Origin: Sphingosinithalassobacter sp. CS137
GTDB taxonomy: Bacteria > Pseudomonadota > Alphaproteobacteria > Sphingomonadales > Sphingomonadaceae
Direction: 5' to 3'
Length of the DNA stretch: 64,000 nt
Assembly (NCBI RefSeq): GCF_014334115.1
Contig: NZ_CP060494.1
Span: 2,572,501-2,636,500 of the forward strand
Shown here in pieces: positions 48,370-64,000 of the stretch. A model generated the notes under the pieces. That model was not told the DNA's origin. It ran no database searches and worked only from the letters and a program-made list of their open reading frames with translations. Positions within the stretch are counted from its first letter, which is position 1. Each line of letters opens with the position of its first letter. Both the position numbers and the translations under genes were made by a program.

Positions 48370-48393
48370 TTTCGGACGCAAGGAGAGTATAGG

Positions 48394-49500
48394 ATGACCA
48401 CCGCCCCGTTCCGTGCCGACCATGTCGGCAGTTTCCTGCGTCCCAAGGCGCTGCTCGACGCGCGCGAGGCGTTTCGTGCAGATTCGATCGATGCCGGTGC
48501 GCTGCGCGCGGTGGAGGACGATGCGATCCGAGGGGTCGTCAAGTTCCAGGAGGAGCTGGGGCTGCAGGGCATCACCGATGGCGAGTTTCGCCGCACCTAT
48601 TTCCACACCGATTTCCTGCTTCAGCTGGACGGCGTGGAGGAGGCGGGCGGAACGCAGGTGAAGTTCCACCAGCATGGCGGCACCGAGCTGGAATATGCGC
48701 CGCCTGTGATGAAGATCGCGGGAAAGATCGCACATGTCCGCGATATCCAGCGCGCGGATTTCGAGTTTCTGGCGAGCTGCACCACTCGCACGCCCAAGGT
48801 GACGATCCCCTCGCCGACGATGCTGCACTTCCGTGGCGGACGCGAAGCGATCGACGCGACGGCCTATCCCGACCTCGACGAATTCTACACCGATCTCTCG
48901 GCGGCATATCGTGCGGAAATCGCCAGCCTGGCCGATGCCGGCTGCCGCTATCTCCAGCTTGACGACACCAATCTCGCCTATCTGTGCGACGACACCCAGC
49001 GCGAGAACGCCCGAAAGCGCGGCATGGACCCGGACGAGCTGCCGCGGCTCTACGCCCGGATCATCAACGACGCCATTCGCGACCGACCCGAGGACATGAA
49101 GGTCTGCGTCCACCTGTGCCGCGGCAATTATCGCTCGTCCTGGGCGGCCGAAGGCGGCTACGAGCCCGTTGCCGAAGTGCTGTTCAACGAACTGAACATC
49201 GACGGCTATTTCCTTGAATATGACGATCCGCGCTCGGGCGACTTCGCGCCGCTGCGCCACTTGCCCAAGGGTAAGACGGTGGTGCTGGGGCTGGTCACGA
49301 CGAAGCTCGGCGAGCTCGAATCGCCGGACGACGTTCGCCGCCGGATCGACGAGGCGGCGAACTACGCGCCGCTCGACCAGCTGGCGCTCTCGCCGCAGTG
49401 CGGCTTCTCCTCGACGGTGCATGGCAACGACATCGCAGTCGAGCAGCAGGCCGCGAAGCTGCGGCTGGTGATCGACGTGGCGAACTCTGTCTGGGGCTGA
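48394..49500 (+). CDS. Cobalamin-independent methionine synthase (MetE C-terminal domain)-like methyltransferase
   Basis: A 368-residue protein equal to the C-terminal catalytic domain of MetE (YxjG/YxjH group). Zinc ligands are present: H240 and C242 in CVHLCRGNY, E275 in GYFLEYDD and C336 in SPQCGFSSTV. Other blocks are ADHVGSFLRP, ITDGEFRRTYFH and LQLDDTNLAYLCDD. Such stand-alone domains transfer methyl groups to thiols from donors that are mostly unidentified. It is divergent from the vanA-like gene over a shared palindrome, which suggests a link to methoxy-group metabolism rather than bulk methionine synthesis. AGGAGAG precedes the start at 48394. Confidence 0.8.
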   Translation: MTTAPFRADHVGSFLRPKALLDAREAFRADSIDAGALRAVEDDAIRGVVKFQEELGLQGITDGEFRRTYFHTDFLLQLDGVEEAGGTQVKFHQHGGTELEYAPPVMKIAGKIAHVRDIQRADFEFLASCTTRTPKVTIPSPTMLHFRGGREAIDATAYPDLDEFYTDLSAAYRAEIASLADAGCRYLQLDDTNLAYLCDDTQRENARKRGMDPDELPRLYARIINDAIRDRPEDMKVCVHLCRGNYRSSWAAEGGYEPVAEVLFNELNIDGYFLEYDDPRSGDFAPLRHLPKGKTVVLGLVTTKLGELESPDDVRRRIDEAANYAPLDQLALSPQCGFSSTVHGNDIAVEQQAAKLRLVIDVANSVWG

Positions 49501-49503
49501 GGG

Positions 49504-49539
49504 TGGTTGCGCGCGGCTTAGTCGCCGCGCGCCAGCCAC
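49504..49539. terminator. Hairpin between convergent MetE-like and CoA-transferase genes
   Basis: GCGCGCGGC (49509-49517) pairs exactly with GCCGCGCGC (49524-49532) around TTAGTC, extended by TGG/CCA. The hairpin overlaps the stop of the CoA-transferase gene. Confidence 0.55.
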
Positions 49540-50675
49540 TCCAGGATTTCCTCGCGATGCTCGTCCAGCCGGGGAGGAACCGCGCCGGAAGTCGCCGCGA
49601 CTGGGCGCATGCGAAAGCCCGGGCCGGGGATCGTGAGTCGCGCCCCGTCCGTGCCGTTGGAAAGGTCGAGCTCCAGCATCGCTTCCGCGCTGGCGAGGTC
49701 GGAGGCTTCGTCGACGCGGCGCACCATGCCGCAGGGAATCCCCTGCGCGCTCATGCTGCGCTCCCAGTCGGCGGCGTCGCGCTTCGCGAATTCGGCCGCG
49801 AGTTCGGCATGCAGCGCATTGAAGTTCGCCCGCTGTGCCTCGGGCGTCGCATAGCGTGGATCGTCGAGCCAATCCTCCCGCGAAAGCTCCCGCGCGAGTG
49901 TCGCGAATTGGCGCGGCTGGACCACGCCCAGCGAAATCTGCCGGCCGTCGCCCGCCGTGAACAGCGATGCGGTGGGCAGTCCGCTATAGCCGGTATTGCC
50001 CATTCGGCGCATCGGCGTGCCGGTGGCCAGATAGGGCGTCAGGGCCGAGGTCATGAACGCCAGGCTCGCATCGAGCATCGACACGTCGATATAGCCGCCG
50101 CCACCGCCGTTCGCGCGCCGGAGCAGCGCCGAAAGGATCGCGATCGCGGCGGTCTGCCCGGTGAGCGTGTCGACGATCGGGAAGCCGACGCGCATCGGCG
50201 GGTCCCCTTCGTCGCCGCTCAGCATCATCATGCCGCTGGTCGCCTGGACGATATTGTCGATCGCTGGCCAGTCGCGATACGGCCCGTCCTGGCCATAGCC
50301 CGACACCGAGCAGAAGATGATCTGCGGGTTGTACGCGCGCACCGTTTCATAGGCGAAGCCCAGCCGGGCGATCACGCCGGGCCGGAAATTCTCGAGCAGC
50401 ACGTCGGATCGCTCGATGATGCCGCGCGCGATTGCCTGGTCCTCGGAATTCTTCAGGTCGAGCGCGATCGATTTCTTGCCAGCATTCGCCGCGATGAACG
50501 CCGCGCTGAGGCCTTCGCCGCTCGGATCGGCGCCATAGCTGCGGAAATTGTCGCCTGCGCGCGACTCGATCTTGATCACCTCCGCGCCCATCAGGCTCAG
50601 CAGGTGCGAGGCATAGGGGCCCGCCATCACATGGCTGAAATCGGCCACGCGGATGCCGGCGAGTGGCTGCGTCAT
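49518..50675 (-). CDS. Class III CoA-transferase (CaiB/BaiF family)
   Basis: A 385-residue family III CoA-transferase, which moves CoA between carboxylic acids. Motifs: GIRVADFSHVMAGPYASHLLSLMGAEVIKIE at the N-terminus, DVLLENFRPGVIARLGF, the region with the catalytic aspartate (PAIDNIVQATSGMM, about residue 170), and the C-terminal GIPCGMVRRVDEASD. It is the last gene of the long minus-strand operon; its start overlaps the end of the alpha/beta hydrolase gene by four bases. The acid it activates is unknown but is presumably the substrate of the dehydratase-like proteins in the operon. Confidence 0.9.
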   Translation of the reverse strand: MTQPLAGIRVADFSHVMAGPYASHLLSLMGAEVIKIESRAGDNFRSYGADPSGEGLSAAFIAANAGKKSIALDLKNSEDQAIARGIIERSDVLLENFRPGVIARLGFAYETVRAYNPQIIFCSVSGYGQDGPYRDWPAIDNIVQATSGMMMLSGDEGDPPMRVGFPIVDTLTGQTAAIAILSALLRRANGGGGGYIDVSMLDASLAFMTSALTPYLATGTPMRRMGNTGYSGLPTASLFTAGDGRQISLGVVQPRQFATLARELSREDWLDDPRYATPEAQRANFNALHAELAAEFAKRDAADWERSMSAQGIPCGMVRRVDEASDLASAEAMLELDLSNGTDGARLTIPGPGFRMRPVAATSGAVPPRLDEHREEILEWLARGD

Positions 50676-51604
50676 GGAAACTCCGGAAACTGCTTGCGCT
50701 GGACGCTCCAGCCATGGGTTGTGCACAGGCGACAATCCTCGCCGACGAACCATGCGCCAGCCTGGCTGTCGTGTTTCAGCTGCCAGTCGAGCCAGGCGCT
50801 GCCGACCCGTGCCCAGTCGCCGCCGCTCGCCAGCCAGAAAGTGCCCATATGGCCGATCGGCAGATTGCCGAGGAATACCGGAACATGGTCGATCCGCTCG
50901 AAGTCGTCGATTGCGTTGGGGTAGGCGATATCCTCGGGCCCGCCGATAATATAGGCGACCGGCGTGTGCAGCCGGGCAAGGTCGGCCTTGCGGATGGTGA
51001 CGCCGCTGCGCCCGCTGCCCGGACGTTCGTACACGCCGCTGGCGAAGGCGACGACAGTGTCGATGCGCGGATCGGCGCCCGCCGCCAGCGCCTGCAAACC
51101 GCCGCAGCTGTGGCCCATCACTGCGATGCGATCGCTATCGACCCGGCCGTACAGCGGGTCGGCCGGGGTGGCATTGGCCCGTTCGGCCCAGTCGATCGCG
51201 GCGAGCAGCTGCGCGACGCTCGTCTCGTCGGGCGTACGCTCGGCGGGAGTGGGAACGCGCGTCGGCATCGGCGCGATTTCCTGCGCCACCGGCAGCTCGC
51301 GGCGCGGTGCGCCGTTGGCGACGACGATATAGCCGTGGCTGGCGATTTCGCGCAGGAAATGGCTCGCGCTCAGGCCATTGTCGCGGCACGCGCCATTACC
51401 CCAGAGCACGAGCGGCAGCCGCGCATTCGGCAGCGTGGCGGGACGATAGAGGGTGTACCCGGCCGCGTCGGCGCGCGCTTCGGCGATCGCAGGATAGAAC
51501 CCCGAACCGGCGGGCGCGCCGATTGGACCTGGGCCGGCCGGATCGGCGGACTGCGCCTGTGCGGGCGCCGCGAGCAGCGCGAGGCCAAGGGTCAACGCTT
51601 TCAT
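50672..51604 (-). CDS. Exported alpha/beta hydrolase (paralogue of the gene at 35775)
   Basis: A 310-residue protein with a signal peptide (residues 1-18, ending AQA-Q). The nucleophile elbow is MGHSCGGLQAL with S166; PLVLWGNGAC, IASHGYIVVANG, AYIIGGPEDIAYPNA and the late LCTTHGWSVQRKQF are shared almost block for block with the hydrolase at 35775-36752 in the LacI regulon. It is therefore probably periplasmic and acts on a related substrate. Its start overlaps the stop of the dctP-like gene by four bases. Confidence 0.82.
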   Translation of the reverse strand: MKALTLGLALLAAPAQAQSADPAGPGPIGAPAGSGFYPAIAEARADAAGYTLYRPATLPNARLPLVLWGNGACRDNGLSASHFLREIASHGYIVVANGAPRRELPVAQEIAPMPTRVPTPAERTPDETSVAQLLAAIDWAERANATPADPLYGRVDSDRIAVMGHSCGGLQALAAGADPRIDTVVAFASGVYERPGSGRSGVTIRKADLARLHTPVAYIIGGPEDIAYPNAIDDFERIDHVPVFLGNLPIGHMGTFWLASGGDWARVGSAWLDWQLKHDSQAGAWFVGEDCRLCTTHGWSVQRKQFPEFP

Positions 51605-52632
51605 GTGGGACTCCTGCAGCTGATCTGATTGCGGCCGCGCACGCTGGCGCGGGCGGTGCGGAATGCGTGCGTCGCATCGATCCCGACATCGCGAAGCGCG
51701 CGGGCGTTCTGCTCGGCGTCCTCGAGATAGAGCCGGTCGAACCGATGCTGTTCGGCATCGGAGAACGTGGTGGTGCGGATGTTCTGCCGGCGCGCTTCGG
51801 CGAGCCCGCGCTCGGTGGCGGCCTGCACTTCCTCCGTGAGCGCATTTTCCCACACCGGGATCGACTCGGTGAGGATCGCGCGCTCCGCTTCGGTCAGCAG
51901 ATTCCAGCGGTCCAGCCCCATCGCCCGGGAGGGATAGGCGCCGCGCGGGATCGCGAGCGTTGCGTAATAGTCCGCAACTTCGGCGAAGTGGAGCGCGGAG
52001 AAAGTGTCGGGCGGGGCGATCACCCCGTCGATCACGCCCTTCGCCAGTGCCGAATAGACGTCGCCCATCGGCATGTTGACCGCATCGACCCCCAGCCGGT
52101 CGAGCACGCTCAGCAATTCGGTTGGCGCGCGGATGCGCAGCCCCTGGAGATCGTCGAGTGTGCGTACCGGCCTGTCGCGGGTGACGATCCCCGGCAGCGC
52201 GCCGCCCTGAACCGCGAGCAGCTTCAGGCCATGCAGCTCGCGCGCGACCTGCGGTTCGGCGGCGTCGATGCAGCGATAAAGTTGCAACTGCGCGTCGATG
52301 CTGTCGGCGCCGCTGTAGAAACCCGTCTGAATGCGCAGGAAATGGCTGCCGCCGCGCGCATAGATCGGCGTGATGAGGCCGATATCGGCAACGCCGTGGC
52401 GCAGTTCCTCCATCGACATGTCCGAAGAGAGGAGTCCGCCGGACCAAATCGGGCGAATGCGCAGCGTGCCGCCCGAGCGCGCCTCGACGAATTCGATCCA
52501 GCGCTGGTCCGCACGGCTGAACGGGTGCCCGGGCGAATAGGGGGTGGCATAGATAAGCTCGGTCGTGCCCGGCGGCAGCGGGCGTTCGCAACCGGCGAGC
52601 AGGATCGCGAGGAGAAGTGCGACCAATCTCAT
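51601..52632 (-). CDS. TRAP transporter substrate-binding protein (DctP type), lipoprotein
   Basis: A 343-residue solute-binding protein of the TRAP (DctP) family. A lipobox LLAGC puts the lipidated cysteine at residue 15. The mature part starts with GTTELIYATPYSPGHPF and includes GVADIGLITPIYARGG, LQGLRIRAPTELLSVLDRLGVD with the conserved carboxylate-binding arginine, and GVIDGVIAPPDTFSALHFAEVADYY. TRAP systems import organic acids with Na+ or H+. It is separated from dctM and dctQ by three genes of the same operon. Confidence 0.88.
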   Translation of the reverse strand: MRLVALLLAILLAGCERPLPPGTTELIYATPYSPGHPFSRADQRWIEFVEARSGGTLRIRPIWSGGLLSSDMSMEELRHGVADIGLITPIYARGGSHFLRIQTGFYSGADSIDAQLQLYRCIDAAEPQVARELHGLKLLAVQGGALPGIVTRDRPVRTLDDLQGLRIRAPTELLSVLDRLGVDAVNMPMGDVYSALAKGVIDGVIAPPDTFSALHFAEVADYYATLAIPRGAYPSRAMGLDRWNLLTEAERAILTESIPVWENALTEEVQAATERGLAEARRQNIRTTTFSDAEQHRFDRLYLEDAEQNARALRDVGIDATHAFRTARASVRGRNQISCRSPT

Positions 52633-53915
52633 GCCAGCCCCTTCTCCCGCAGGAAATCCGCGACGAGCCCGACCATGTGATCGTGGTTCCAGTTCTTGGC
52701 GTCGACCATGTCGGCGTCGAGCGAGAGCACCGGCATTCCCGACGCCTTCAGCGATTCGGCAGTGATCTTGGTGCCCGACTGCGAGAGGCGATTGTCGGGC
52801 GGCAGCAGCACCAGCGCGGCATCGATCCCGCAGCGTTCGGCTTCGCTCGTCATCCATTCGTTCATCCAGGGCGGCAGGTGCAGCACTTCGTTCATCGAAC
52901 AGATGCGGCTGGCGAGCGCGTCCATGGGCCGCCCCTGCACGTCGCGGATATATTGCGGGCCGGCGAACGGCAGGTACATCGACCAGACGAATACCGCGCC
53001 GAGCCGCTCCTCCAGCGCCTGATAGAAGCCGGGATCGTGCCACACGCCGGCGCCGATCCACATCAGCCGAATCTTCTCGTTGGTCGCCGCGCCCAGCCCT
53101 TGGTCGATCCGCTCGCGCACTTCGTCGCGGAATCGCTTCGCGTGCGCGACCGCCCAGTCGCTGCCGCGATGCCATTGCGGAATCATCGTGTTGGGCATCT
53201 GCTCGGCGATCGAGACGGGGCAGGGACGGGCGGTGCCGATCGCCTGCGCAGCTTCCCACAGATAGCCTTCCTGCTCATTGATCCGCTCCATCAGATGGTG
53301 GAGCTTCTCCTCTTCGAAGCGGCGGTCGGTGCGGTTTTCCAGCAGCGCGATCAGGTCGCGCATCTCGCGCACCAGCAGCGCGATCCGATCGGGATCATAA
53401 ACGTCGCGCCACTGCCGGTTCGAATGCTTGAACCACAGCGGATCCTTCTTCGGCCAGGCGGGCGCCTCAAGTGGGAAGAAGTCGGTGCCCATCGCATCGG
53501 CCCATTGGCCGAAGACGTGCTGGATACAGTCGCAGGTGAGCCGCGCGACCAGCACCGTCGGCGTCGGCAGCCCGCCCCAAGGCGCGGTGGCGGGATCATT
53601 GGCGAGCGTGCAGGCAAAGCCCAGTGAACAATATTTACAGCTGTTCTCAGGATAGCCGTGATCGGCGAGCACCTGGAAATAGCGGCCCGACAGTTGCTTG
53701 GCCGAGATATAGGCCGACCACCACTGGTTGGTGATGATCGGAATGTCCATCACATGGAAGATCTCGTGCGGCGTGTCCGCCTGGACGATGGCGAAGGGCT
53801 CGCCTTCCTCGACCACGCGCCGGCGCAGATCGGCGCCGAACCGCTTCTGATAGGCGTTCGCCTCGGCGGTGCAGGTCAGCGTCTTGCGGCTGCGCTGTCC
53901 GGTGGCCGTGCTCAT
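52629..53915 (-). CDS. 2-hydroxyacyl-CoA dehydratase/benzoyl-CoA reductase-family protein (HgdB-like)
   Basis: A 428-residue member of the family formed by 2-hydroxyacyl-CoA dehydratase component D and benzoyl-CoA reductase. The N-terminal EIFHVMDIPIITNQWW and the Cys-rich CKYCSLGFAC (C93, C96, C102) and TCDCIQ (C128, C130) suggest an iron-sulfur cluster. The third cysteine motif usual near the C-terminus is not seen; the segment reads LLPPDNRLSQSG. Known relatives work in anaerobes and need an ATP-driven activator (HgdC/BcrA type), which is not in the window. It overlaps the fused CoA-transferase gene by four bases. Confidence 0.8.
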   Translation of the reverse strand: MSTATGQRSRKTLTCTAEANAYQKRFGADLRRRVVEEGEPFAIVQADTPHEIFHVMDIPIITNQWWSAYISAKQLSGRYFQVLADHGYPENSCKYCSLGFACTLANDPATAPWGGLPTPTVLVARLTCDCIQHVFGQWADAMGTDFFPLEAPAWPKKDPLWFKHSNRQWRDVYDPDRIALLVREMRDLIALLENRTDRRFEEEKLHHLMERINEQEGYLWEAAQAIGTARPCPVSIAEQMPNTMIPQWHRGSDWAVAHAKRFRDEVRERIDQGLGAATNEKIRLMWIGAGVWHDPGFYQALEERLGAVFVWSMYLPFAGPQYIRDVQGRPMDALASRICSMNEVLHLPPWMNEWMTSEAERCGIDAALVLLPPDNRLSQSGTKITAESLKASGMPVLSLDADMVDAKNWNHDHMVGLVADFLREKGLA

Positions 53916-55993
53916 TCGAATACTCCTGATTCCCGCATCGCCTGCACCCGCTCGGGCGACAGGCCGCACATGCTGCGTGCGATTTCCAGCGCATGCTCAC
54001 CCATCGCAGGCGCGCGGAACGGCGCGACGCGGTCGCGCGAGAGGCGCAGCGGCGTCGCGATATGGCCGAACGGGCCGAGCAGCGGATGGTCGAGCGTCAC
54101 CAGCGCCGCGCGGTCGGCAAGCTGCGGGTCGCGCTCGATCAAATCCTCGGCGTCCTGCACCACCCCAGCCGCGATTCCGGCGGCCTGAAGCTCGGCGGCG
54201 ATCGCGTGATCCTCGCGCGCCGCGCACCAGCGTGCGATGTCGGGGCCGGTGATTGCCTCCAGCTTCGCGCGATCGGCTTCGTCGAACAGGCTGATCGCCA
54301 CCCAGCGATCCTCGCCCGCGGCGGCGAACACATCCTGAAAGAAGATGGCGGGATCGGCGTTTCCGGCGCGCTGCGGGCGCTCGCCGCGCTTCGCGGCAGC
54401 GAGATAGTCGCGCATCTGCTGAACGCAGATTTCGTACATCGCAGCATCGATATGGCAGCCGCGCCCGGAGTCGCGCCGATGTTGGAGCGCGGCAGCGACA
54501 TTGGCGGCCATCACGAAGGGGACGATCACGTCGCCGTACGGGACCGCGCCGGGGATCACCGGGTCGCCGTCGGCATGGCCGGTCAGGAAGGTGCGGCCCG
54601 AAAGCGCGCCGCCGGTGCCGTCCACGCCCCATTCCTGCGCCAGTGGGCCGGTCTGGCCATAGACGCTGCCCGAAACCATCACGATGCCCGGATTGCGCGC
54701 GGCGAGGCTGTCATAATCGAGGCCGAGCTTGGCCATCGTGCCGGGCGAGAAATTCTCGACCACCACATCGGCCCAGTCGATCAGCGGGTCGAGGATCTCG
54801 CGTGCGCCCGGCGCCTTCATGTTGAGCGACAGGCTGCGCTTCGAACTGTTGAGATGCGCGAACCAGGGCTTGTCGTCGAGATTGCCTACCTGCGAGGCCG
54901 AAACCTGCACGTCGAGCCGCGACAGATCGGGGCGGGTGCGCGTCTCCACCTTCACCACATCGGCGCCGAGGTCGCCCAGCGTCTTGGTGGTGATCGATCC
55001 GACCAGCGCCCAGGCGAAATCGAGCACGCGCACCCCCGACAGCGGGCCGGGCCGCTCGCCGGTGTGTACCGCAGGTGCCTCGGCAGGCGCGCCCTCGCGC
55101 AGCACTGCGAACCGTTCGGGCAGGCCCGAGGGCGTGTCGAGGAAGCCGCGCGTGGCCAGATGCGGGTCGGCGAGCACGTCGGCGGGTTCGTTGACGACAC
55201 AGGAGTTGATCCCGCGCCGACGGCCTTCGGTCGCGATCTCCGCTTTGGTGCGCGTGGCGAAGAAGGCGGCGATCGCGGCTTCCCATTCGGCACGCGTTTC
55301 GGCCGGCAGGGTAGAGCGGTTGTAGTTCAGCCAATCGGTACCGCGCAGCGGGTTCGTGACGCCAACCTCGTCCATCCAGTCCGACAGCGCCTGGTTGGCG
55401 GGCGCGCCCAGGCGGCCGGTCATCAGCGAATGGAAGCACCAGCCGTCGGCGAGCGTCCAGATGGCGCGCACGGTGGCCTTGCCATAGGCGAGGGCGCCGC
55501 CGACGCGGTGCAGCTTGCGCCGGTCGAACTGCCAGACGAGCACGCCGTTGACGTTGCGGCTGAACGCGACCTGCTGGATCGAAACATCGACATGCTGGCC
55601 CTTGCCATGGGTGCCGCGCGCATAATGCGCCGCCATGGCTCCGGCTGCGGCGACCATGTCGGCATGGAAGGTGCAGGCGTCGCCCGCTTCCTTGACCGGC
55701 GACCGCCCGGGTTCGCCGGTCACGCGCAGCGTGCCGCCCATCGCCGAGGCGACCAGCTCGCCGCCGCGCCAGTCGCTGCGGGGACCATCGGAACCGAAGG
55801 GCGTGACCGAGACGTGGACCGCAGCCTCCGGAATCGCTTCGGCGACGTTCGCGCGACCGAGATCGTCGATCACGAACGACGCACCCTCGATCGGCCCGCC
55901 CAGCTCGGCGCCGAGCGAAGCCAGCATCCGCGCGAGCGGGCGATCGGCCATGCCGCCGAGTACGGCGATTCGGTGTCCGGCGAGCGGCTTCAT
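53912..55993 (-). CDS. Double-length class III CoA-transferase (two CaiB/BaiF domains)
   Basis: A 693-residue protein made of two CoA-transferase family III domains in tandem, against about 390 for ordinary members. The second half (from about residue 315) is canonical: SGVRVLDFAWALVGSITTKTLGDLGADVVKVE, VVENFSPGTMAKLGLDY, and GVDGTGGALSG, which probably carries the catalytic aspartate. The N-terminal half starts HRIAVLGGMADRPLARMLASLGAE and is more diverged, with GSDGPRSDWRGGELVASAMGG. The arrangement resembles a fusion of a heteromeric transferase such as BbsEF. Both ends overlap the dehydratase-like genes on either side. Confidence 0.85.
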   Translation of the reverse strand: MKPLAGHRIAVLGGMADRPLARMLASLGAELGGPIEGASFVIDDLGRANVAEAIPEAAVHVSVTPFGSDGPRSDWRGGELVASAMGGTLRVTGEPGRSPVKEAGDACTFHADMVAAAGAMAAHYARGTHGKGQHVDVSIQQVAFSRNVNGVLVWQFDRRKLHRVGGALAYGKATVRAIWTLADGWCFHSLMTGRLGAPANQALSDWMDEVGVTNPLRGTDWLNYNRSTLPAETRAEWEAAIAAFFATRTKAEIATEGRRRGINSCVVNEPADVLADPHLATRGFLDTPSGLPERFAVLREGAPAEAPAVHTGERPGPLSGVRVLDFAWALVGSITTKTLGDLGADVVKVETRTRPDLSRLDVQVSASQVGNLDDKPWFAHLNSSKRSLSLNMKAPGAREILDPLIDWADVVVENFSPGTMAKLGLDYDSLAARNPGIVMVSGSVYGQTGPLAQEWGVDGTGGALSGRTFLTGHADGDPVIPGAVPYGDVIVPFVMAANVAAALQHRRDSGRGCHIDAAMYEICVQQMRDYLAAAKRGERPQRAGNADPAIFFQDVFAAAGEDRWVAISLFDEADRAKLEAITGPDIARWCAAREDHAIAAELQAAGIAAGVVQDAEDLIERDPQLADRAALVTLDHPLLGPFGHIATPLRLSRDRVAPFRAPAMGEHALEIARSMCGLSPERVQAMRESGVFE

Positions 55994-56871
55994 GCGCTAA
56001 TCCCCGCGAGAAAGCCGCCGATTTCTTCCGGTGCGCCGTCCTTCGCAGTCCAGCCGCGACGGGTGAGCACCAGCGTGGGTATCTCCGCATCGGCCAGGGT
56101 GGCGCGGGCAGCTGGCACACTCCAGACTCTCGCCTCGTCTTCCTCGGTATACCAGAGCACTGCGGCTTTCGCGTCGATCCGGCGCGCATCGGCGGCGATC
56201 CTCGCCGCGCTGTCGGTAAAGCCGCGCTGGTCGTCGGGACGCTGGTGGAGCTGGCGGCCGATCGCGGCGGCAGGGTCTCCGGTAGCTTCGGCGACACGGG
56301 GACCCGGATCGCGCCACAGATCTGCGAGCGTCGCGCCGAATGCCGCGAAGCCGGCTGTCTCGACGGCCAGGTGCAGTCGCCGGTCGGGCGGCGGCGTGCC
56401 TGCGATCAGGCAAGCCGGCGCGGAGGTTTCGACAAGCTCGGCGCCGCGCTCCATGTTGGTAGCGACGATTCCCGCTTCGAGCGCGGCGTCGCTCACGGCG
56501 AAGCGGTCGGCGAGCTTTCGGAGTGCGGCGATGCTGTGGTCGGCGCTGCTCGTGCGCGGCACCTTGGCGATGTCGAGCAGGATCGGCGCGGGACCGCCCA
56601 TCGCGCCACTGCGCTGCAACTCGCAGAGATAATAATAGAGCCGCTGCGCCGAATCATCGACGCGGCTGAACACCACTGCCTCGAGATGGTCATAGGCGCC
56701 CTCGGCCCAGCGTTCGAGGATCGAGCGTGTCCAGGGTGCGAACTTGCTTTCGAGCCAGCGGTCGGCACGCGGCGTGGCGCGCGAGACGTCCCATTCCAGC
56801 GGCCCGTTATAGCGGCCGGTGGCGGCGAACAGGTCGTGCGGGAGGCAGGGGCCTATGCTGGCGATCATCAT
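55990..56871 (-). CDS. Second 2-hydroxyacyl-CoA dehydratase-family protein, lacking the usual cluster cysteine
   Basis: A 293-residue protein related to the component D subunits of 2-hydroxyacyl-CoA dehydratases. IGPCLPHDLFAATG at the start corresponds to the family's first motif, and AVVFSRVDDSAQRLYYYLCEL to the second, where the usual CDS is DDS with Asp72 in the cysteine position. IPTLVLTRRGW near the end matches the C-terminal strand. The cysteines left (C9, C83, C154) are not in canonical positions except possibly C9. It is probably the partner of the HgdB-like protein, from which the CoA-transferase gene separates it. The family assignment is moderate. Confidence 0.6.
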   Translation of the reverse strand: MMIASIGPCLPHDLFAATGRYNGPLEWDVSRATPRADRWLESKFAPWTRSILERWAEGAYDHLEAVVFSRVDDSAQRLYYYLCELQRSGAMGGPAPILLDIAKVPRTSSADHSIAALRKLADRFAVSDAALEAGIVATNMERGAELVETSAPACLIAGTPPPDRRLHLAVETAGFAAFGATLADLWRDPGPRVAEATGDPAAAIGRQLHQRPDDQRGFTDSAARIAADARRIDAKAAVLWYTEEDEARVWSVPAARATLADAEIPTLVLTRRGWTAKDGAPEEIGGFLAGISA

Positions 56872-58179
56872 CTAGTGTCCGATCCAGCCCGGCAGCCAGA
56901 GCACCAGCGCCGGGAAGAGAATGAGCAGGAGAAGGTGGAGGAAGTCGCTCGCCAGGAACGGCAGCACGCCCTTGAAGATGCGGTTGATCGACACGTCCTT
57001 GGCGACGCCCTGAATGACATAGAGGTTCATGCCGAGCGGCGGATGGACGAAGCCGATCTCCATCGCGCGGGTGATGAAGATGCCGAACCAGATGGGCGAC
57101 ATGCCCGCCGCGCCGACGATCGGCAGCAGGATCGGCGTGGTGAGCAGCATCAGCGCGAGCCCGTCGAGCACCGAACCGAGCAGCAGCAGGAACGCCGCGA
57201 TCAGCAGCAAGGTGCCGAACGAGCCGAGGTTGAGCGCCGTGACCGCTTCGCCCAGCGCGTCGGGCAGTCCGGTGACGCTGACGAACACCGAGAAGATCAG
57301 CGCGCCGATGATCACCAGCAGGATCAGTCCGCTCGTCTCCAGCGTGCGCTCGAACGCCTCGCGCAGCATTGCGCGGCTGAGGCGCCTGCGCAGCGCGGCG
57401 ATCGCGAGCGCGCCCGCAGCGCCGACCGCCGCCGCCTCGGCCGGGCTGACGACGCCGACCGCGATGCCGCCGATAACGAGCAGGATCAGGAGCAGCATGT
57501 CCCATATCCGGGCCAGCGAGCGCCAGCGCTCGCCCCAGGTTGCGCGCTCGCTCGTCGGTCCGGTCTCCGGCTTCAGCCGCACGACCAGCCAGATGACGAG
57601 CATGTACAGCAGCATCTGGGTGATGCCGGGCACGATCGCGGCGGTGAACAGCGTCCCGATGGACTGTTCGGCGATGATGCCGAACACGATCAGCGCGCCC
57701 GACGGCGGAATCATCTGCCCCAGCGTGCCGCCCGCGGCCACCGATCCGGTGGCGAGCGTGTCGGCATAGCCGCGCTTGCGCATCTCGGGTAGCGCGACCA
57801 TGCCCACCGTGGCGGCGGTGGCGAGGCTCGACCCGTTGATCGCGCCGAAACCTGCGCAGCCTCCGACTGCGGCATAGGCAAGCCCTCCGCGCCGATGCCC
57901 GACGAACTTGGCCGCCGCGTCGAACAGGTCGCGACTGGCGTTCGCGGCGAAGAAGATCTGCGCCATCAGCAGGAACAGCGGCAGCGTGCCGAGTTCGTAG
58001 CGCGTGAGCGTCTCGACGACGATGACGCCGGACTTGATCAGCGCGGGCTCGACCCCCAGCACCAGCATCAGCCCGCCGAGGCCGACGAGCCCCAGCGCCA
58101 CGCCGATCCGCACGCCCGCCAACAGGAGCGCGAGGAGGATCAGTACACCGACAAGACCGGTTCCGGCGCTCGCTATCAC
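56872..58179 (-). CDS. dctM: TRAP transporter large permease (DctM type)
   Basis: A 435-residue protein with about twelve membrane helices. Characteristic blocks are TLPLFLLMAQIFFAANASRDLFDAAAKFVGHRRGGLAYA, CAGFGAINGSSLATAATVG, SVAAGGTLGQMIPPSGALIVFG and IGFVHPPLGMNLYVIQG. The start is a GTG ending at 58179, overlapping the dctQ stop as GTGA; no ATG lies nearby. It ends without a gap at the start of the dehydratase-family gene. With DctQ and the DctP-type lipoprotein it should import an organic acid. Confidence 0.92.
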   Translation of the reverse strand: MIASAGTGLVGVLILLALLLAGVRIGVALGLVGLGGLMLVLGVEPALIKSGVIVVETLTRYELGTLPLFLLMAQIFFAANASRDLFDAAAKFVGHRRGGLAYAAVGGCAGFGAINGSSLATAATVGMVALPEMRKRGYADTLATGSVAAGGTLGQMIPPSGALIVFGIIAEQSIGTLFTAAIVPGITQMLLYMLVIWLVVRLKPETGPTSERATWGERWRSLARIWDMLLLILLVIGGIAVGVVSPAEAAAVGAAGALAIAALRRRLSRAMLREAFERTLETSGLILLVIIGALIFSVFVSVTGLPDALGEAVTALNLGSFGTLLLIAAFLLLLGSVLDGLALMLLTTPILLPIVGAAGMSPIWFGIFITRAMEIGFVHPPLGMNLYVIQGVAKDVSINRIFKGVLPFLASDFLHLLLLILFPALVLWLPGWIGH

Positions 58180-58628
58180 CGGCCACGACCCCGAAGCGCT
58201 TGGCGCAGCGCGAGCAGCGTCACCGCGGCGAGGCACAGATTGGCGAAAAGCCGCAGCCAGCGCCACGGCACGCCGACCAGCTCGCTCATTTCATGGGCGG
58301 CCCACAGGTCGAGCGCCAGCCAGCCCGAGCCGCCGAGCAGGCAGGCGAAGAACAGGGCGGTGAGCAGGTCGGAAGCGCGTTCGGCGCCCGCGCGGCGCCA
58401 GCCGCCGAGCCGATCGACCATCAGCCGCACGCGCGCGTGGCGATCGGCAAGCGTGGCAACGACCAGCGCGATTCCGCCAGCGACGAGGACGGCAGCCTGG
58501 ATCAGCTCAATCGATCCGCGCACCGGCATGCCGAGCTGACGTCCGACCACCGCGAGCGTATCGATCGCGGTCGCGGCAAGCAGCGCGCCGCCGCCACCCC
58601 AGATGAGGCACGAGCGCAGAAGAGTCAC
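58176..58628 (-). CDS. dctQ: TRAP transporter small permease (DctQ type)
   Basis: A 150-residue protein with four membrane helices. The block VVGRQLGMPVRGSIELIQAAVLVAGGIALVVAT is typical of DctQ. The start is a GTG ending at 58628 that overlaps the stop of the CapA-like gene as GTGA; the stop overlaps dctM the same way. Longer frames upstream run antisense or in a wrong frame through the capA-like gene. Confidence 0.88.
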   Translation of the reverse strand: MTLLRSCLIWGGGGALLAATAIDTLAVVGRQLGMPVRGSIELIQAAVLVAGGIALVVATLADRHARVRLMVDRLGGWRRAGAERASDLLTALFFACLLGGSGWLALDLWAAHEMSELVGVPWRWLRLFANLCLAAVTLLALRQALRGRGR

Positions 58629-59740
58629 GCCGCCTCCCGAACGGTGCCGTCGTCGCCGATCACGACCGGGGGCAAGCCCGCCGTGACCGTGATCGCCTCG
58701 AGATAACGGGCGATCTCGGCGCCGCTCCGACGGTCGGCGAGGACCGGCCGACCGGGCGCCTCGACATGGACCGGCACCACGCCTGCCTTGATCCGGCCAT
58801 CGGACAGCAGCGAGAGTCTTCCGATGAACGCGTTCACCGCCTCGGGATGGAAGGGAGCGAGCGTGTAGGCCGGATCGGGTTCGAAGCCGAACAGCTTCTT
58901 GCGCCGCTCGGCCCATTCGGCCCTTGCCGGATGGTCCTGTCCGGGGCTGAGCGCCGACGTCACGACGCACCCGTTGCCGAGGCCGTGGAAGATCGGGCGG
59001 TCCCGATGAAATTCGATTCCGCGCACGATATGGGCGTGATGGCCGAGCACCGCGTCCGCGCCCGCCTCGATCGCGGCATGCGCCAGCGGGCGCTCATAGG
59101 GCGCAAGGCGCGCGGGAACATGGACCAGCCCCTTGTGCAGCGCGACGAGCACCCAGTCCGCGTCGCGGCGTATGTGCGCGATGTCCTCGCGCAGCATCTC
59201 GAACGCTTCGTCAGCGGCGCGATCCAGCGGCGCGGCAGGCGCAATCGGCGAACCATCCGCAGTGTCGACGCGCAGATACGCGGAGCCCGCCTTTGCGGGA
59301 CCGGCCCAGCCGATCCGCGGGCCGACGCAATTATAGCTGAGCAGCGCAATGCGTCGCCCGCCGCGCTGAACGAAGGCGGCGCGCCGTGCGGTGGCGAGAT
59401 CGGCCCCGGCCCCCGCATGCGCGATCCCAAGCGTGTCGAGCCGGTCGATCGTGTCCGCGATTCCCTCCGGCCCGCAATCGGCGATGTGATTGCCGGCGAG
59501 GCTCAGCATGCCGAACCCCGCCTGTGCGATCGCGTCCAGGTTCTCGGGAGGAGCGCCCGGGGCAGGGACGTCACCCTTCATTTCGGCTCCGCGCCGGGTG
59601 TGCGGCACTTCGAGGTGGCCGAGTGCGAGATCGGCAGCGCGAAGCGCCGGAGCGATCCCCGACAGCCAGTGGCCGGCGTCCGGTTCGTCTAGAACCAGAT
59701 CGCCAGTCACCAGCAGTTCGAGATCGCCCCCGGCAGTCAT
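58625..59740 (-). CDS. CapA-family metallophosphoesterase-like protein (paralogue of the gene at 39063)
   Basis: A 371-residue protein of the CapA/PGA_cap family with LLVTGDLVLDEPD, LGHLEVPHT, SLAGNHIADCGPEG and GHHAHIVRGIEF, the metal-binding motifs of the calcineurin-like fold. It has no signal peptide. The paralogue at 39063-40184 is in the LacI cluster; both stand next to TonB-dependent receptors. I start at the ATG ending at 59740; a TTG at 59758 overlapping the receptor stop codon is an alternative. Its substrate is unknown, and the association with uptake and CoA genes argues against capsule synthesis. Confidence 0.8.
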   Translation of the reverse strand: MTAGGDLELLVTGDLVLDEPDAGHWLSGIAPALRAADLALGHLEVPHTRRGAEMKGDVPAPGAPPENLDAIAQAGFGMLSLAGNHIADCGPEGIADTIDRLDTLGIAHAGAGADLATARRAAFVQRGGRRIALLSYNCVGPRIGWAGPAKAGSAYLRVDTADGSPIAPAAPLDRAADEAFEMLREDIAHIRRDADWVLVALHKGLVHVPARLAPYERPLAHAAIEAGADAVLGHHAHIVRGIEFHRDRPIFHGLGNGCVVTSALSPGQDHPARAEWAERRKKLFGFEPDPAYTLAPFHPEAVNAFIGRLSLLSDGRIKAGVVPVHVEAPGRPVLADRRSGAEIARYLEAITVTAGLPPVVIGDDGTVREAA

Positions 59741-59754
59741 CGTGGTCCCAATGC

Positions 59755-62484
59755 TCAAAAGGACGTGCGCACACTGGCCGCGAACAACCGGCCGACCGGG
59801 CTCGACGCGGTCGCGTCATAGCCGCCGCTGCCGTTGCCGCCCGGTGCCAGGTTCACATAGGGCGGATCCTCGTCCAGCACGTTCCGCGCCTCCAGCGTGA
59901 AGGTCAGGTCGCGCCCGATCCACCCGCTGCCATCCTCGCCCAGCCGCCAGGTGAGCGACAGGTCGACCGGCGTGAACGACGAGACGTCCTCGGACGGCGT
60001 CACCGCATCATTCTCATAGCCTCCGACATGCGTCGCCAGCACGCGAAGCGAGAAGGGGCCGCTGTCCCAGGTCGCGCTGGCGCGTGCCTTGAACGTCAGC
60101 GGGCGGAAAAGGAGGTTGCGCACATCGTTCAGCGGCGCGGTCGCGGTGATCGCTTCCTCATAGTTGGTGAGGTAGGTTCCCGACGCGTTCAGCGTGAGCC
60201 GGTCGTCGATTCCGAGATCAAAGCTGTAGAGCGCACTGAAATCGATGCCTTGGGTGATCGAACGACCCAGATTCTTGCTGCGCCCGTCGATGAACAGGTC
60301 GACGTTGGCGATGTCGCCGCCCGGAATTGGACGGGCGACCACGGGCAGCCCCTCTGCGAGCGCGGCGGCGACCGCATCGCGTGCATCCTGGCCGCGGAGG
60401 ATCACTCCGGTGCCGGCGAACAGGCTTTCCTGCGTCAGGATCGCGAGGTTTGAAAGATAGGCACTGACCTGATTTTCATATTCGACGTTGAAGAAGGTGA
60501 CCGACAGCCGCAGCCGATCGATCGGCTCGATGTCCGCGCCCACCGACCAGGTCTCGGCGGTTTCCGGATTCAGGTCCAGATTGGGTCCCGAGAGCGCGAA
60601 ACCCAGCAGCGGCGCTCCGCCCGAGGGATTCTGGTAGCTCTGCCCGAACAGCGCGTTGCTGTTGCCGTAGATTTCGGGGAGCGTGGGCGCGCGGAACGAG
60701 GTTCCATAGCTGCCGCGCACGGTGACGCCCCGCACCGGCGACCAGCTGACGCCGAACTTGGGATTGGTGGTGCCGCCGACGTCGCTGTAGCTGTCGTACC
60801 GGACCGCCGCGTTGAGCTCGAGCCGTTCGAACCCGCCGGTCGCGTTGGCCGGGCCGAACAGCGGCACGAAAAGCTCCGCATAGACCGAATCGATCGAGCG
60901 ATCGAATTCGCGGAAAGTGACGGTCGTGTCCGGATTACCGCGGCCCAGACCGAGGGCGATGTCGAATTCCTGCCGCTCATAGCCGGCGGCAAGCTTCACC
61001 GTGCCTCCCGGCAAAGCGAAGAGCGGTCCGTTCAACCGCGCCTCGTAGAGCGTGAGATCGCCGTTGGTCGGAGTGAGATAGACCTGGTCCGAAATCGCCG
61101 CCAGCACCGCGTCGCTCGTGCGGCCGAGGCCATAAGGGTCGAATGCGGTCGCCGGGTTGCTGCTGGCGAGCGCGGCGGCAAGCGCGGCGTTGTTGAGCCC
61201 GTTCCGGCTTTCCGCATTGTCGCGCGTCTCGCCCGTGCCGACGAGGCCTTCGAACTCCCAGTTGTACGGCAGGCGGATGCGCAGGCCGGGCGTCACCTGC
61301 CAGCTCTGGGCGTATCCCGACGAGGTATTCTGCGACAGATCGTTCATGAAGTTATAGTCGATCGTATAGCTGGTGCCGGTGAAGCCGGGCGGCCGCACGA
61401 AGAAGGCATTGGTCTGCGGCACGGTGAGCGTCGTCGACGTATAGCTCGGATTGCGGCTGAACTCACGGCGCGAATAGAAGCCGTCAGCGAACAGCTCCAG
61501 CCAATCCGTCACTTCGAAGGACGCGGTGGCATTCACCGAGTCATAGCTTTGATGCGGAAACAGATCCTGTCCGGCCGCATCGTCGCACAGGTTCACAGTG
61601 CCGGGAACGAGGCTCGCCGCGTTGGCGGGAGTCAGCACCGCCGGCATCGCATAGCTGACGCCGCCCGCCCGCAGCGTGCCTGGCGCGCAGCGGGTGACGC
61701 GATAGTCGTTACCGCCGAACGGCCGCTGGTCGGACGTGAAGAAGTCCCGGCCGTCGCCGCTCAGCGCGGAGCGATCGACATGTTCGTAGGCGACCATCAC
61801 CTGGCCGCGCGAGAAGGTCTTTCCCGCGGCCACGCCCAGCGCATATTCGGTGAAGTCGCCTTCGTCGGCGATACCCGCGCGGGCGAACGCCTCCACGCCG
61901 TTCAGCGTCCGGCGGGGGATCAGGTTCACCACACCGGCGACCGCATCCGATCCATAGATCGCCGAGGCGCCGTCCGCGACGACCTCGACTCGCTCGACGC
62001 CCAGCGTCGGCAGCACCGACGGATCGGTCGCGCGGCCGTTGTTCACGACGCGATGCCCGTCGATCAGGACCAGCGTGGCATAGGGGCCGATCCCGCGCAG
62101 ATTGACGCTGTTGCCGAACACGATGTTGCCGGAGCCGCCGGCCTGGCCGCGTGAGTTCTCCGAGACGCCGAGGTCGAAGTTCTGCGGAATTTCCTTGATG
62201 ATCCGATCTACGGTGACGCCGCTAGATTGTTCGAGTTCCTCCCGGCCCAGCGCGATGACGGTGGAGCCGACCGGCGCGACGCCGCGCACGCGGCTGCCGG
62301 TGACGACGATTTCCGCCTCGGGATCGCCGAGTTCGGCGACCGGCGCGTTCTCCTGCGCGGGCTGCTCTGTCGGCGGCAGGGCAGGGCGGTCCTGCGCCAG
62401 CGCCGCGGCGGACCAGCACAAGCTGGCCAGCGACGCACTTCCCAGCAGCAGAAGCCTGCCGGACATTCTTCCGTTGTCGATCAT
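59755..62484 (-). CDS. TonB-dependent outer-membrane receptor
   Basis: A 909-residue receptor. Signal peptide (LLLLGSASLASLCWSAAALAQ) then AEIVVTGSRVRGVAPVGS, a plug (NLRGIGPYATLVLIDGHRV, VVADGASAIYGSDAVAGVVNLI) and a barrel ending in an aromatic (LFAASVRTSF). It is of the same sphingomonad group as the receptor at 41272. The start is the ATG ending at 62484 with GGGAGAG ahead; a longer frame to 62535 lacks support. It would bring the ligand into the periplasm, where the exported hydrolases and the TRAP binding protein can act on it. Confidence 0.92.
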   Translation of the reverse strand: MIDNGRMSGRLLLLGSASLASLCWSAAALAQDRPALPPTEQPAQENAPVAELGDPEAEIVVTGSRVRGVAPVGSTVIALGREELEQSSGVTVDRIIKEIPQNFDLGVSENSRGQAGGSGNIVFGNSVNLRGIGPYATLVLIDGHRVVNNGRATDPSVLPTLGVERVEVVADGASAIYGSDAVAGVVNLIPRRTLNGVEAFARAGIADEGDFTEYALGVAAGKTFSRGQVMVAYEHVDRSALSGDGRDFFTSDQRPFGGNDYRVTRCAPGTLRAGGVSYAMPAVLTPANAASLVPGTVNLCDDAAGQDLFPHQSYDSVNATASFEVTDWLELFADGFYSRREFSRNPSYTSTTLTVPQTNAFFVRPPGFTGTSYTIDYNFMNDLSQNTSSGYAQSWQVTPGLRIRLPYNWEFEGLVGTGETRDNAESRNGLNNAALAAALASSNPATAFDPYGLGRTSDAVLAAISDQVYLTPTNGDLTLYEARLNGPLFALPGGTVKLAAGYERQEFDIALGLGRGNPDTTVTFREFDRSIDSVYAELFVPLFGPANATGGFERLELNAAVRYDSYSDVGGTTNPKFGVSWSPVRGVTVRGSYGTSFRAPTLPEIYGNSNALFGQSYQNPSGGAPLLGFALSGPNLDLNPETAETWSVGADIEPIDRLRLSVTFFNVEYENQVSAYLSNLAILTQESLFAGTGVILRGQDARDAVAAALAEGLPVVARPIPGGDIANVDLFIDGRSKNLGRSITQGIDFSALYSFDLGIDDRLTLNASGTYLTNYEEAITATAPLNDVRNLLFRPLTFKARASATWDSGPFSLRVLATHVGGYENDAVTPSEDVSSFTPVDLSLTWRLGEDGSGWIGRDLTFTLEARNVLDEDPPYVNLAPGGNGSGGYDATASSPVGRLFAASVRTSF

Positions 62485-62531
62485 GTCTTCTCTCCCGAAA
62501 GTCCGGCTCTCGTTCGGCCGGTGATCTGGTG

Positions 62532-64000
62532 TCATCGCGCGAGCGGCAGCTCGATTCGCGAGGCGTCGCGCCCGCCGCGGAGCACCGTGATTTGCGGCGC
62601 CGGGTCGATCCGGGTGTCCTGCAGGTTGCGCTGGCGCGGATCGGCGCCGGCGACGGTGAAGCGCAGTCGCGCGCCAGCCGGAACCACGCGTGATACGGGC
62701 GTGAGCGCGATCGAGACCGGGGCTTCTTCGCTTGGTGCGAGCGTCTGCATGTCCTCCGACAGACCGGAGTGCCAGGGAAGGCCCAGAGTCTCGTACGGCG
62801 CCTGCGACAGCTTGCGGTGCGTGAGCTTGAGCCGCCCGAAGGCGATGACCTCGGCCTCCCCTTCGGCATTGATCTGGTCGAGATAGACGAACAGGTTCGC
62901 GTCCGGATCGCTGGCGGTGACGGTGAGATGCGCGACCGGGGAGCCGATCAGCGTCATCGACGCATCGAGTGGCGCGCTGGTATAGCCCAGCCCGTGCTCG
63001 ACCATCGGCCTGGGCCAGAAGGCGAAATATTCGGCCGGGGGAAGGTCGTAGTCCACCGTGAAGTCGTCACGACCGGCAGCGCCGGGTGCCGCGGCGAGGC
63101 TGGAGCCGGTTGCATCGGCCGTATCCGAAAGGAACCAGGGCACCGGCCGCGATTGCACGCCCGGCAGCTCGTCGGACTGGACGTACCGTCCCTCTCCGTC
63201 GAGACCCTCGACCCAATAGGTGGCGCGCGGCTCCCGATCGATGCCGTTTGCGACGCCCTTTAGATGATGGTCGAAATAGCGCGTGACCTCGCCCGCGAAG
63301 TCGAAGCCGGGGGGCGGGACACAATGGTCACCGGGCCCTGCGAGGAACTTGCCGCCCAGATTGGCGGCGCCGAGGATCACCTGGCCGGTCGGCTCGTCGT
63401 GCCAGTTGCCCCAGAAATAGGTGGCGATGCCCGCCTCCCGGATCGCGTCGAGATAGCGATAGACAGCCACTTCCTCCCAGAAGGCGTTGCCGGTGTATTC
63501 CGAGACGCTGTCGCGATTGGGCATGCCGTACCACAGCGGCCCCATCGGCGTATTGCCGGCGTGCTCGGCGACGGCCTGGCGCAGCAAGGTTCCGTCGGCA
63601 TCCGCGTCGACGGGAATGCTCGCGAGATCGACTTCGGCAGGCTCGTCGGGGCGCGTGTTGAACTGCGCGGTGATGCCGCCGCGCCGGACGAACTCATATT
63701 TGTCGAGCTCGGATGCACCGATGAAGACTGCCTTGAGCGATGGCGGTGCGGTCGTCGCGGTCTGAAATGTGGTTCCGCCGAGATAGGAGCAGCCGATCAT
63801 GCCGACCGAGCCGGTCGAGAAGGGTTGGCGTGCGAGCCATTCGACCAGATCGTAGCTGTCCTGTGCCTCGGTGCGGTCCTGAAAGCCGCGGCGCGTGCCG
63901 AACGAGGCGCCCTTGCCGCGGATGTCGGCGACCGCGATCACATAGCCCGCGCGCAGCAGCGAACTCAGCGCGAGCCGCTCGCTGAGCCCGGTCTCCACGA
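62532..64000 (-). CDS. CocE/NonD-family alpha/beta hydrolase, 5' end outside window
   Basis: At least 489 residues of an X-Pro dipeptidyl-peptidase/CocE-type hydrolase. The N-terminal region is cut by the window end. The nucleophile elbow is GMIGCSYLGGTTF, preceded by YDLVEWLARQPFSTGSVG; a histidine-bearing block GPGDHCVPPPGFDF and a C-terminal jelly-roll (AHLTVTASDPDANLFVYL, VSRVVPAGARLRFTV) complete the family architecture. Members hydrolyse esters or amides such as cocaine, glutaryl-7-ACA or alpha-amino acid esters. It is the first visible gene of the long minus-strand operon, 47 bases before the receptor gene. Confidence 0.85.
   Translation of the reverse strand, partial: VETGLSERLALSSLLRAGYVIAVADIRGKGASFGTRRGFQDRTEAQDSYDLVEWLARQPFSTGSVGMIGCSYLGGTTFQTATTAPPSLKAVFIGASELDKYEFVRRGGITAQFNTRPDEPAEVDLASIPVDADADGTLLRQAVAEHAGNTPMGPLWYGMPNRDSVSEYTGNAFWEEVAVYRYLDAIREAGIATYFWGNWHDEPTGQVILGAANLGGKFLAGPGDHCVPPPGFDFAGEVTRYFDHHLKGVANGIDREPRATYWVEGLDGEGRYVQSDELPGVQSRPVPWFLSDTADATGSSLAAAPGAAGRDDFTVDYDLPPAEYFAFWPRPMVEHGLGYTSAPLDASMTLIGSPVAHLTVTASDPDANLFVYLDQINAEGEAEVIAFGRLKLTHRKLSQAPYETLGLPWHSGLSEDMQTLAPSEEAPVSIALTPVSRVVPAGARLRFTVAGADPRQRNLQDTRIDPAPQITVLRGGRDASRIELPLAR

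Follow-up and report, generated by a model that had tools for sequence, protein, structure and literature searches.

What does an enzyme pair of the 2-hydroxyacyl-CoA dehydratase/benzoyl-CoA reductase (HGD/BCR) fold, which in textbooks exemplifies the ATP-driven ketyl-radical and Birch-type chemistry of anaerobes, do amid genes for the oxygen-dependent breakdown of aromatic compounds? The question is raised by a stretch of 64,000 nucleotides (hereafter the window) from Sphingosinithalassobacter sp. CS137, whose genome is a single contig of 3,194,162 bases and 99.98% complete. A set of eleven co-directional minus-strand genes, 49518 to 64250, overruns the end of the window and combines an HgdA-like and an HgdB-like subunit of this fold with hydrolases, a TonB-dependent receptor, a TRAP transporter and coenzyme A (CoA) transferases, one of them a double protein (dCoAT). 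The first-pass annotation of the window had read the pair as carrying out a ‘difficult dehydration or reduction’ by an anaerobic radical route. Our comparison of sequences and predicted structures does not support that route, for the activator, several cluster ligands and the glutamate at the Fe-bound water are missing, and we consider it fairly probable that the pair is a non-reductive, oxygen-tolerant and non-radical acyl-CoA enzyme of an aerobic catabolic route.

Cluster ligands of the HgdA- and HgdB-like subunits

HgdA and HgdB of the operon are true homologues of the substrate subunit (BzdO/HadB) and the electron-entry subunit (BzdN/HadC) of the classical enzymes, respectively. Among the top-ranked Foldseek matches, which are the ones listed, the predicted fold of HgdA is of the HadB/BzdO type and that of HgdB of the HadC/BzdN type, and the nearest profile matches are MbdO and BzdO. 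The earlier count of two dehydratase/reductase-family proteins is right as to the homology of both, but a PF06050 match is found only in HgdA; HgdB matches no Pfam or NCBIfam model and was recognised by profile and predicted fold.

Known systems show what such a pair would be expected to keep. HadBC, HgdAB and FldBC with HadA/FldA, as we take these genes to be named, follow the same logic of a family III CoA-transferase beside a heterodimeric dehydratase, and HadB and HadC are matched in fold by the operon pair. The class I benzoyl-CoA reductase dimer (BzdNO, MbdON) likewise shares the fold, the alpha/beta pairing and CoA-transferase partners of the aromatic type. In BzdNO, Cys95, Cys128 and Cys380 bind the alpha cluster, Glu65 contacts the Fe-bound water and BzdN carries a double cubane on six cysteines (PMC11971306); in the operon pair these BzdO and BzdN cysteines are not all kept, the equivalent of BzdO Glu65 is a glutamine, and the operon has no BzdPQ-type activator. 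Classical 2-hydroxyacyl-CoA dehydratases use an activator and an HgdB-type cluster, 2-hydroxyglutaryl-CoA dehydratase combining its activator with one cluster per subunit (PMC8473912); for the operon pair no activator was found in the own genome, and HgdB has no cluster cysteines.

The extent of these losses is best read in a wider set of relatives. Whole-genome and plasmid searches found two sister groups of the operon’s own group W, which were then listed by protein searches: group O includes Oceanicola sp. D3 and further names of the Rhodobacterales type, and group R includes Rhizobium and Devosia, among others (the best 120 of 664 matches for R and the best 120 of 1005 for O). In a tree of 59 rows, W, R, O and a fused form make up one clade of 43 rows, apart from 16 classical rows, on a branch of length 3.01 with support 100/99, the tree program flagging long branches. 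The fused form joins HgdB and HgdA in one 795-residue protein of genome G501 (L072:7791-10178), from the same class as the source, and its gene adjoins CoAT2, hydrolase, CapA, CocE and TonB receptor genes.

The three cluster cysteines of HgdB are absent from all 56 rows at each of the three columns, against 5/5 in classical beta subunits, and occur in 0, 1 and 0 of 13 sister-group sequences; two of these columns are occupied by Asp72 and Asp245 in the HgdB of the operon. HgdA of the window keeps Cys93 and Cys128 and has Asn375 at the third place. A cysteine stands at this third place in none of the 423 clade rows (420 distinct sequences), and Cys93 and Cys128 in none of the 241 rows outside the clade’s own group; in all 240 listed sister-group proteins both are lost and the third place is Asp. 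By comparison, every classical subunit read has all three cluster cysteines (16/16, with 11/11 for alpha). This classical set came from 22 loci tried, which gave 15 open frames; three in the wrong frame (L101, L110 and L084) were dropped and four annotated subunits added, making 11 alpha and 5 beta rows, some of them from genomes outside the activator test described below. Four classical rows are partly misaligned in the large HgdA alignment (cysteine at 3, 1 and 3 of the four), and the classical ligands were therefore counted on separate smaller alignments. The residue at the Fe-water site is Glu in 11/11 classical alpha rows and Gln64 in all 62 locus rows.

Activator ATPase and the radical alternative

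A search for an HgdC/BcrA-type activator, which the first-pass annotation had proposed as a check, came back negative in the organism’s own genome with two models (PF01869 and TIGR00241, no match each in the 3.19 Mb contig). Of the genomes that contain a close homologue of HgdA, 61 in all and of unstated completeness, 58 likewise have no TIGR00241 match over cut-off; the positives fall as 1/50 in a first set and 2/11 in the remainder, and a weak partial match occurs in one more genome. As a control within the same order, an activator over cut-off is present in all 15 genomes with only a distant HgdA match (E 4e-9 to 4e-4) and in none of three with a close homologue (G000, G025, G100). For the sister groups, none over cut-off was found in 12 of the 13 genomes retrieved with a group O protein, activator matches are absent from the genomes behind L071 and L072, and no protein in the stretches L079 and L114-L125 matches the activators known from L073 and L074, which served as reference loci. 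With no activator, no electron-entry cluster site and no Fe-water glutamate, the pair would appear to work without the ATP-driven ketyl-radical cycle.

Several observations weigh against a non-radical aerobic enzyme. Cys93, Cys96, Cys102 and Cys128 of HgdA stand in all 182 own-group rows and Cys130 in 181 (two overlapping sets, W from the loci and A from protein matches, the latter including the window’s own HgdA), a pattern that points to a metal site kept or rewired and not simply lost. A metal site at Cys93/96/102/128/130 of this clade’s HgdA is possible; the predicted structure has a mean predicted local distance difference test score of 57-76 in six blocks spanning residues 61-120. The fused form retains one of the three HgdB cysteines. 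Gln64 corresponds to BzdO Glu65 by alignment only, with a spacing to the first cysteine of 29 against 30 in BzdO, and group R is mixed at this place, with one Glu among 12. Activators over cut-off do occur in three of the 61 genomes (G157, G548 and G550) and in the sister-group genome G1021. In G157, a gammaproteobacterial metagenome-assembled genome (MAG), they share the operon’s contig (C101, locus L047), about 16 kb or more from the operon HgdA and beside classical PF06050 genes, and in G548 and G550 they lie on other contigs than the presumed operon HgdA match. Group R stretches are without obvious aromatic genes, some having ABC instead of TRAP transporters, and the hydroxycinnamate ligase and lyase known from the window lie near the operon in only 2 of 79 loci (L033, L083), the flank of genome-contig loci reaching at most 10 kb.

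Could the pair then be a working classical enzyme, its HgdA cluster rewired on these five cysteines and its electrons supplied by an unrecognised or distant activator, that carries out a radical dehydration or ring reduction? The matching fold and partners, the two ligands kept in the own group and the three activator-bearing genomes, one with activators on the operon contig, would suit it. So would loci L080 and L081, plasmid-borne in Rhizobium leguminosarum and Sphingopyxis macrogoltabida, where classical HGD pairs are accompanied by acyl-CoA dehydratase activases; both species are aerobes, and the earlier statement that the dehydratase family works in anaerobes does not hold in this general form. 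Set against this are the own genome without an activator by either model, an HgdB with none of the three family cysteines, the replaced Fe-water Glu, and sister groups that share the clade’s invariant residues without any HgdA ligand, and we judge a rewired radical enzyme very unlikely. The activator that such an enzyme would need elsewhere was looked for with PF01869 and TIGR00241 in the own genome and with TIGR00241 in the related genomes, and this reading is retained only as a rival.

Conserved residues and selection

Nine HgdA residues are invariant in the 423 clade rows (Glu51, Trp248, Trp286, Trp292, Tyr298, Trp311, Tyr314, Arg337 and Trp354), and Arg250 is kept in 422. Five are clade-specific, Trp248, Tyr298 and Trp311 occurring in none and Arg337 and Trp354 in one each of the 11 classical alpha rows; the others are shared with these rows to varying degrees (Glu51 10/11, Tyr314 9/11, Arg250 8/11, Trp286 and Trp292 5/11 each). 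We infer that the aromatic residues of the clade form the walls of a pocket that takes up an aryl or cyclic acyl group. HgdB has near-invariant residues of its own, namely Glu41 (69/70), Arg70 (68/70) and Trp250 (69/70).

The ratio of non-synonymous to synonymous substitution rates (dN/dS) of hgdA is 0.127, 0.127 and 0.169, the lowest of the operon in 3/3 comparisons, and hgdA is under strong purifying selection. Pseudogene decay was rejected: in each comparison, none of the other nine genes has a value as low as those of hgdA and dCoAT. The interleaved order hgdB–dCoAT–hgdA within one operon, together with the loss of catalytic ligands, would also agree with a pair that does not catalyse at all and serves the CoA-transferases as a CoA-ester-binding scaffold or chaperone. 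We regard this as rather unlikely, since no other gene of the operon is as constrained as hgdA, the five clade-specific residues never vary within the clade, and the pair is found with single, split or fused transferases alike.

Layout of the operon

All eleven consecutive minus-strand genes of the first-pass annotation are present, and by comparison of loci the set is a real and conserved, putatively co-transcribed operon for uptake and CoA activation:

62532..64000 (-), continuing to an ATG at 64250, 250 bases past the window: CocE/NonD-family hydrolase (cocE) with an N-terminal signal-like segment
59755..62484 (-): TonB-dependent receptor (PF00593 and PF07715), with GGGAGAG upstream of the ATG at 62484
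58625..59740 (-): CapA-like (PGA_cap) protein, signal peptide not obvious (PF09587, E 1e-52)
58176..58628 (-): DctQ, TRAP small permease (PF04290, E 5e-12)
56872..58179 (-): DctM, TRAP large permease (PF06808, E 1e-98)
55990..56871 (-): HgdB-like subunit, HadC/BzdN fold, three cluster cysteines all lost
53912..55993 (-): double family III CoA-transferase, dCoAT (two PF02515 stretches)
52629..53915 (-): HgdA-like subunit, HadB/BzdO fold (PF06050, E 5e-46)
51601..52632 (-): DctP, TRAP solute-binding protein with a lipoprotein-like signal (PF03480, E 2e-28 for a longer frame)
50672..51604 (-): alpha/beta hydrolase (hyd), PETase-like, with a signal-like start (PF12740, 28 bits for a longer frame, equal to the cut-off)
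49518..50675 (-): family III CoA-transferase, CoAT2 (PF02515, E 7e-108 for a slightly longer frame)

With the chosen starts, seven of the ten junctions are the four-base overlaps noted earlier, dctM directly adjoins hgdB, and the other two junctions are gaps, of 47 bases after cocE and of 14 bases after the TonB receptor gene; alternative starts at 62535 and at a TTG at 59758 would turn both gaps into four-base overlaps. A search of 48300-64000 for sigma-70-like promoters found none, and sites resembling terminators show no excess over shuffles. A GntR-type regulator is divergent from cocE (64327-65058 in extended coordinates). Just past the window (L002:4525-6800), a protein with two CxxCH haem motifs and its OmpA-like partner, neither with a Pfam match, have orthologues in 17 and 6 of 79 loci.

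The assignments of the partner genes differ in depth. The in-window part of the CocE/NonD hydrolase, whose start was taken from the same chromosome (L002), scores 169.9 bits with TIGR00976 (cut-off 66.3) and matches cocaine esterase in PDB (E 7e-17); the PETase-like hydrolase matches a lipase (2fx5, E 4e-22) and PETase (9w68, E 7e-19). The TRAP set is complete, with PF03480, PF04290 and PF06808 all represented, and DctP scores 70.9 bits with NF037995 (cut-off 50). Its best PDB matches are 4n6d, 4nap and 4pgn; the latter two were presumably solved with aromatic indole acids, which a paper search did not confirm and which is not used as evidence here. CoAT2 scores 244.9 bits with NF052585, under its cut-off of 750. 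The CapA-like protein matches PDB 8gq9 (E 1e-22), deposited as a poly-gamma-glutamate synthesis protein and in our understanding MslH. Its closest NCBIfam model is that of the MslH peptide epimerase (NF038314), at 111.8 bits far below the equivalog cut-off of 700, and lasso-peptide genes were not seen in the operon. The reaction described for MslH is the epimerisation of an aromatic residue at the C terminus (PMC9266682).

Conservation and spread

A single scan of genome contigs yielded 61 loci, which their record titles assign to Sphingomonadales, Caulobacterales, other Alphaproteobacteria, Steroidobacter and other Gammaproteobacteria; many of the genomes are MAGs. The scan used exact peptide patterns and missed distant relatives, and gene calling yielded no genes for L050. 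At 40% identity and 40% coverage, with some contigs short, the genes pass in the following numbers of loci: hgdA 61, dctP 56, dCoAT 55, dctM 54, CoAT2 53, dctQ 50, capA 47, hgdB 46, hyd 41, cocE 39 and the TonB receptor 39, where hyd, capA and the TonB receptor may include paralogues and hgdB is the most divergent enzyme gene of the operon. Five core genes (dctM, hgdB, dCoAT, hgdA and dctP) all pass in 41 loci, and because 41/41 of these show one and the same arrangement on a single strand, the order is not a matter of chance. The proposed search for the same gene order elsewhere has in this way found it in Sphingomonadales, Caulobacterales and Gammaproteobacteria, and the idea of an accident of one genome was rejected on the 61 loci of the single scan.

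Among annotated plasmids, those of Novosphingobium sp. EMRT-2 and sp. ES2-1 and of Croceicoccus marinus carry the operon, with HgdB annotated ‘hypothetical protein’. Culturable environmental strains such as Novosphingobium subterraneum DSM 12447 (L011) and sp. PP1Y also have it. Its spread is patchy: 3 of 118 genomes of the source order have a close HgdA homologue, and none of the six other genomes of the same genus in that sample does. The closest named relatives of HgdA are from Sphingomonas (87% identity). Locus L041 places the operon in a MAG titled Klebsiella pneumoniae, a bin name that is probably wrong.

CoA-transferases and an aromatising alternative

The two halves of dCoAT align to the benzylsuccinate CoA-transferase subunits 9fn0_B (E 4e-44) and 9fn0_A (E 4e-29), which we take to be the BbsE and BbsF types, and dCoAT is, by these alignments, a fusion of both. 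It has two CaiB-type domains, with the catalytic Asp in the C half (Asp488, in 55/55 rows), and at the corresponding position of the N half we read no Asp. Relative to BbsEF, the subunits are fused here and split in sister groups: in L071, L115-L117 and L119, separate BbsF-like and BbsE-like genes take the place of dCoAT and are followed by a further CoA-transferase and then dctP, dctQ and dctM. A family III CoA-transferase is found in 59 of the 61 loci and in all 15 further stretches (L071, L072, L079, L114-L125), four of which (L116, L120, L121, L122) also carry P450 genes 31-51% identical to the P450s of the window.

A further alternative is that the pair runs the benzoyl-CoA reductase reaction in reverse, as a dehydrogenase that turns a cyclic dienoyl-CoA into an aromatic CoA ester with no need of an activator. 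BzdNO alone re-aromatises the dienoyl-CoA with viologen (PMC11971306). The nearest profile matches, MbdO and BzdO, would be in keeping with such a role, and so would the P450, Rieske or aromatic genes that accompany some of the loci. Against it, HgdB is without the relay-cluster cysteines, the listed sister-group proteins are without the HgdA cluster ligands, and no electron-acceptor gene is among the conserved operon genes; an aromatising enzyme seems to us quite unlikely.

Neighbouring modules and the substrate

That the operon lies amid oxygen-dependent aromatic catabolism, as previously noted, is borne out by the LigB, Rieske and hydroxycinnamoyl-CoA lyase genes present. A p-hydroxycinnamate module (27832-34237) is collinear with the Croceicoccus marinus plasmid. 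At 29184-34237 it encodes an ADP-forming acyl-CoA ligase, a p-hydroxycinnamoyl-CoA hydratase/lyase (463.7 bits, cut-off 276) and an aldehyde dehydrogenase, which recurs in 6 of 79 loci, and it also holds a 182-aa protein whose orthologue is annotated DUF3237. A second conserved module (35775-45446) comprises a PETase-like hydrolase, LacI, a P450, CapA2, a membrane-type protein with no Pfam match, a TonB receptor and a tannase/feruloyl-esterase-family protein; of the 79 loci searched, 10 contain CapA2 and 10 its neighbour at 40181-41212. Both modules flank the operon on the Croceicoccus marinus plasmid (L083). Elsewhere, L072 adjoins genes read as pca and pobA, one of which matches the window’s FAD monooxygenase at 65%, and Rieske genes stand beside capA in two Phenylobacterium MAGs.

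The window also holds, at 18136-23027, a LigB-type ring-opening dioxygenase with a Gfo/Idh oxidoreductase, an amidohydrolase and an FAD monooxygenase, a group that presumably resembles protocatechuate 4,5-cleavage.

Because hydroxycinnamoyl-CoA lyase, feruloyl-esterase-family, P450 and Rieske genes lie nearby, the acid part of a plant phenylpropanoid ester is weakly indicated as the substrate; rosmarinate, quinate and benzylsuccinate-like substrates are chemically possible. A module orthologous to the route by feruloyl esterase and p-hydroxycinnamate CoA ligase/lyase is present both in the window and beside the Croceicoccus marinus operon, and to our knowledge that route needs no HGD-type pair. 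At a guess, an aryl-lactate from rosmarinate would suit a 2-hydroxyacyl-CoA enzyme with a neighbouring hydroxycinnamoyl-CoA lyase. In a bolder form, which we hold to be doubtful, the clade, spread through aerobic Alpha- and Gammaproteobacteria, would have dropped Fe-S radical chemistry and would dehydrate 2-hydroxyacyl-CoA, such as aryl-lactoyl-CoA from rosmarinate-type esters, by acid-base catalysis in air and pass cinnamoyl-CoA to the neighbouring lyase.

Discussion

Our analysis outlines how a dimer of the HGD/BCR fold may serve an aerobic cell. The claim of a single uptake-plus-CoA operon stands, conserved and with a homologous dehydratase/reductase pair, and the pair itself is, from its ligands and genomic setting, an unusual activator-free variant of a known fold. 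In the non-radical scheme that we favour, the hydrolases with signal-like starts would cut esters outside the cytoplasm, the freed acid would enter via the TRAP importer, possibly to be epimerised by the CapA-like protein, and would be turned into its CoA thioester. HgdA would bind this thioester, as its relatives do, and the pair would then most likely perform an acid-base elimination, as a hydro-lyase or lyase, on an aryl- or alicyclic-acyl-CoA in the presence of oxygen. As the first-pass annotation had stated, no described pathway with this gene set is at hand: literature searches, in which subscription journals were mostly outside coverage, found no paper on it among those listed, also for rosmarinate degradation.

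In databases, members of the clade go under ‘benzoyl-CoA reductase subunit B’ or ‘2-hydroxyacyl-CoA dehydratase’. If our reading is true, it would correct the names of hundreds of proteins (at least 360 clusters) that now suggest anaerobic benzoyl-CoA reduction or 2-hydroxyacyl-CoA dehydration. It would also show that an enzyme of this kind can be re-used in air, keeping its dimer and its CoA partners while shedding the activator and the cluster ligands, and it makes testable both which radical-free thioester chemistry this fold supports and how Sphingomonadales use plant phenolic esters.

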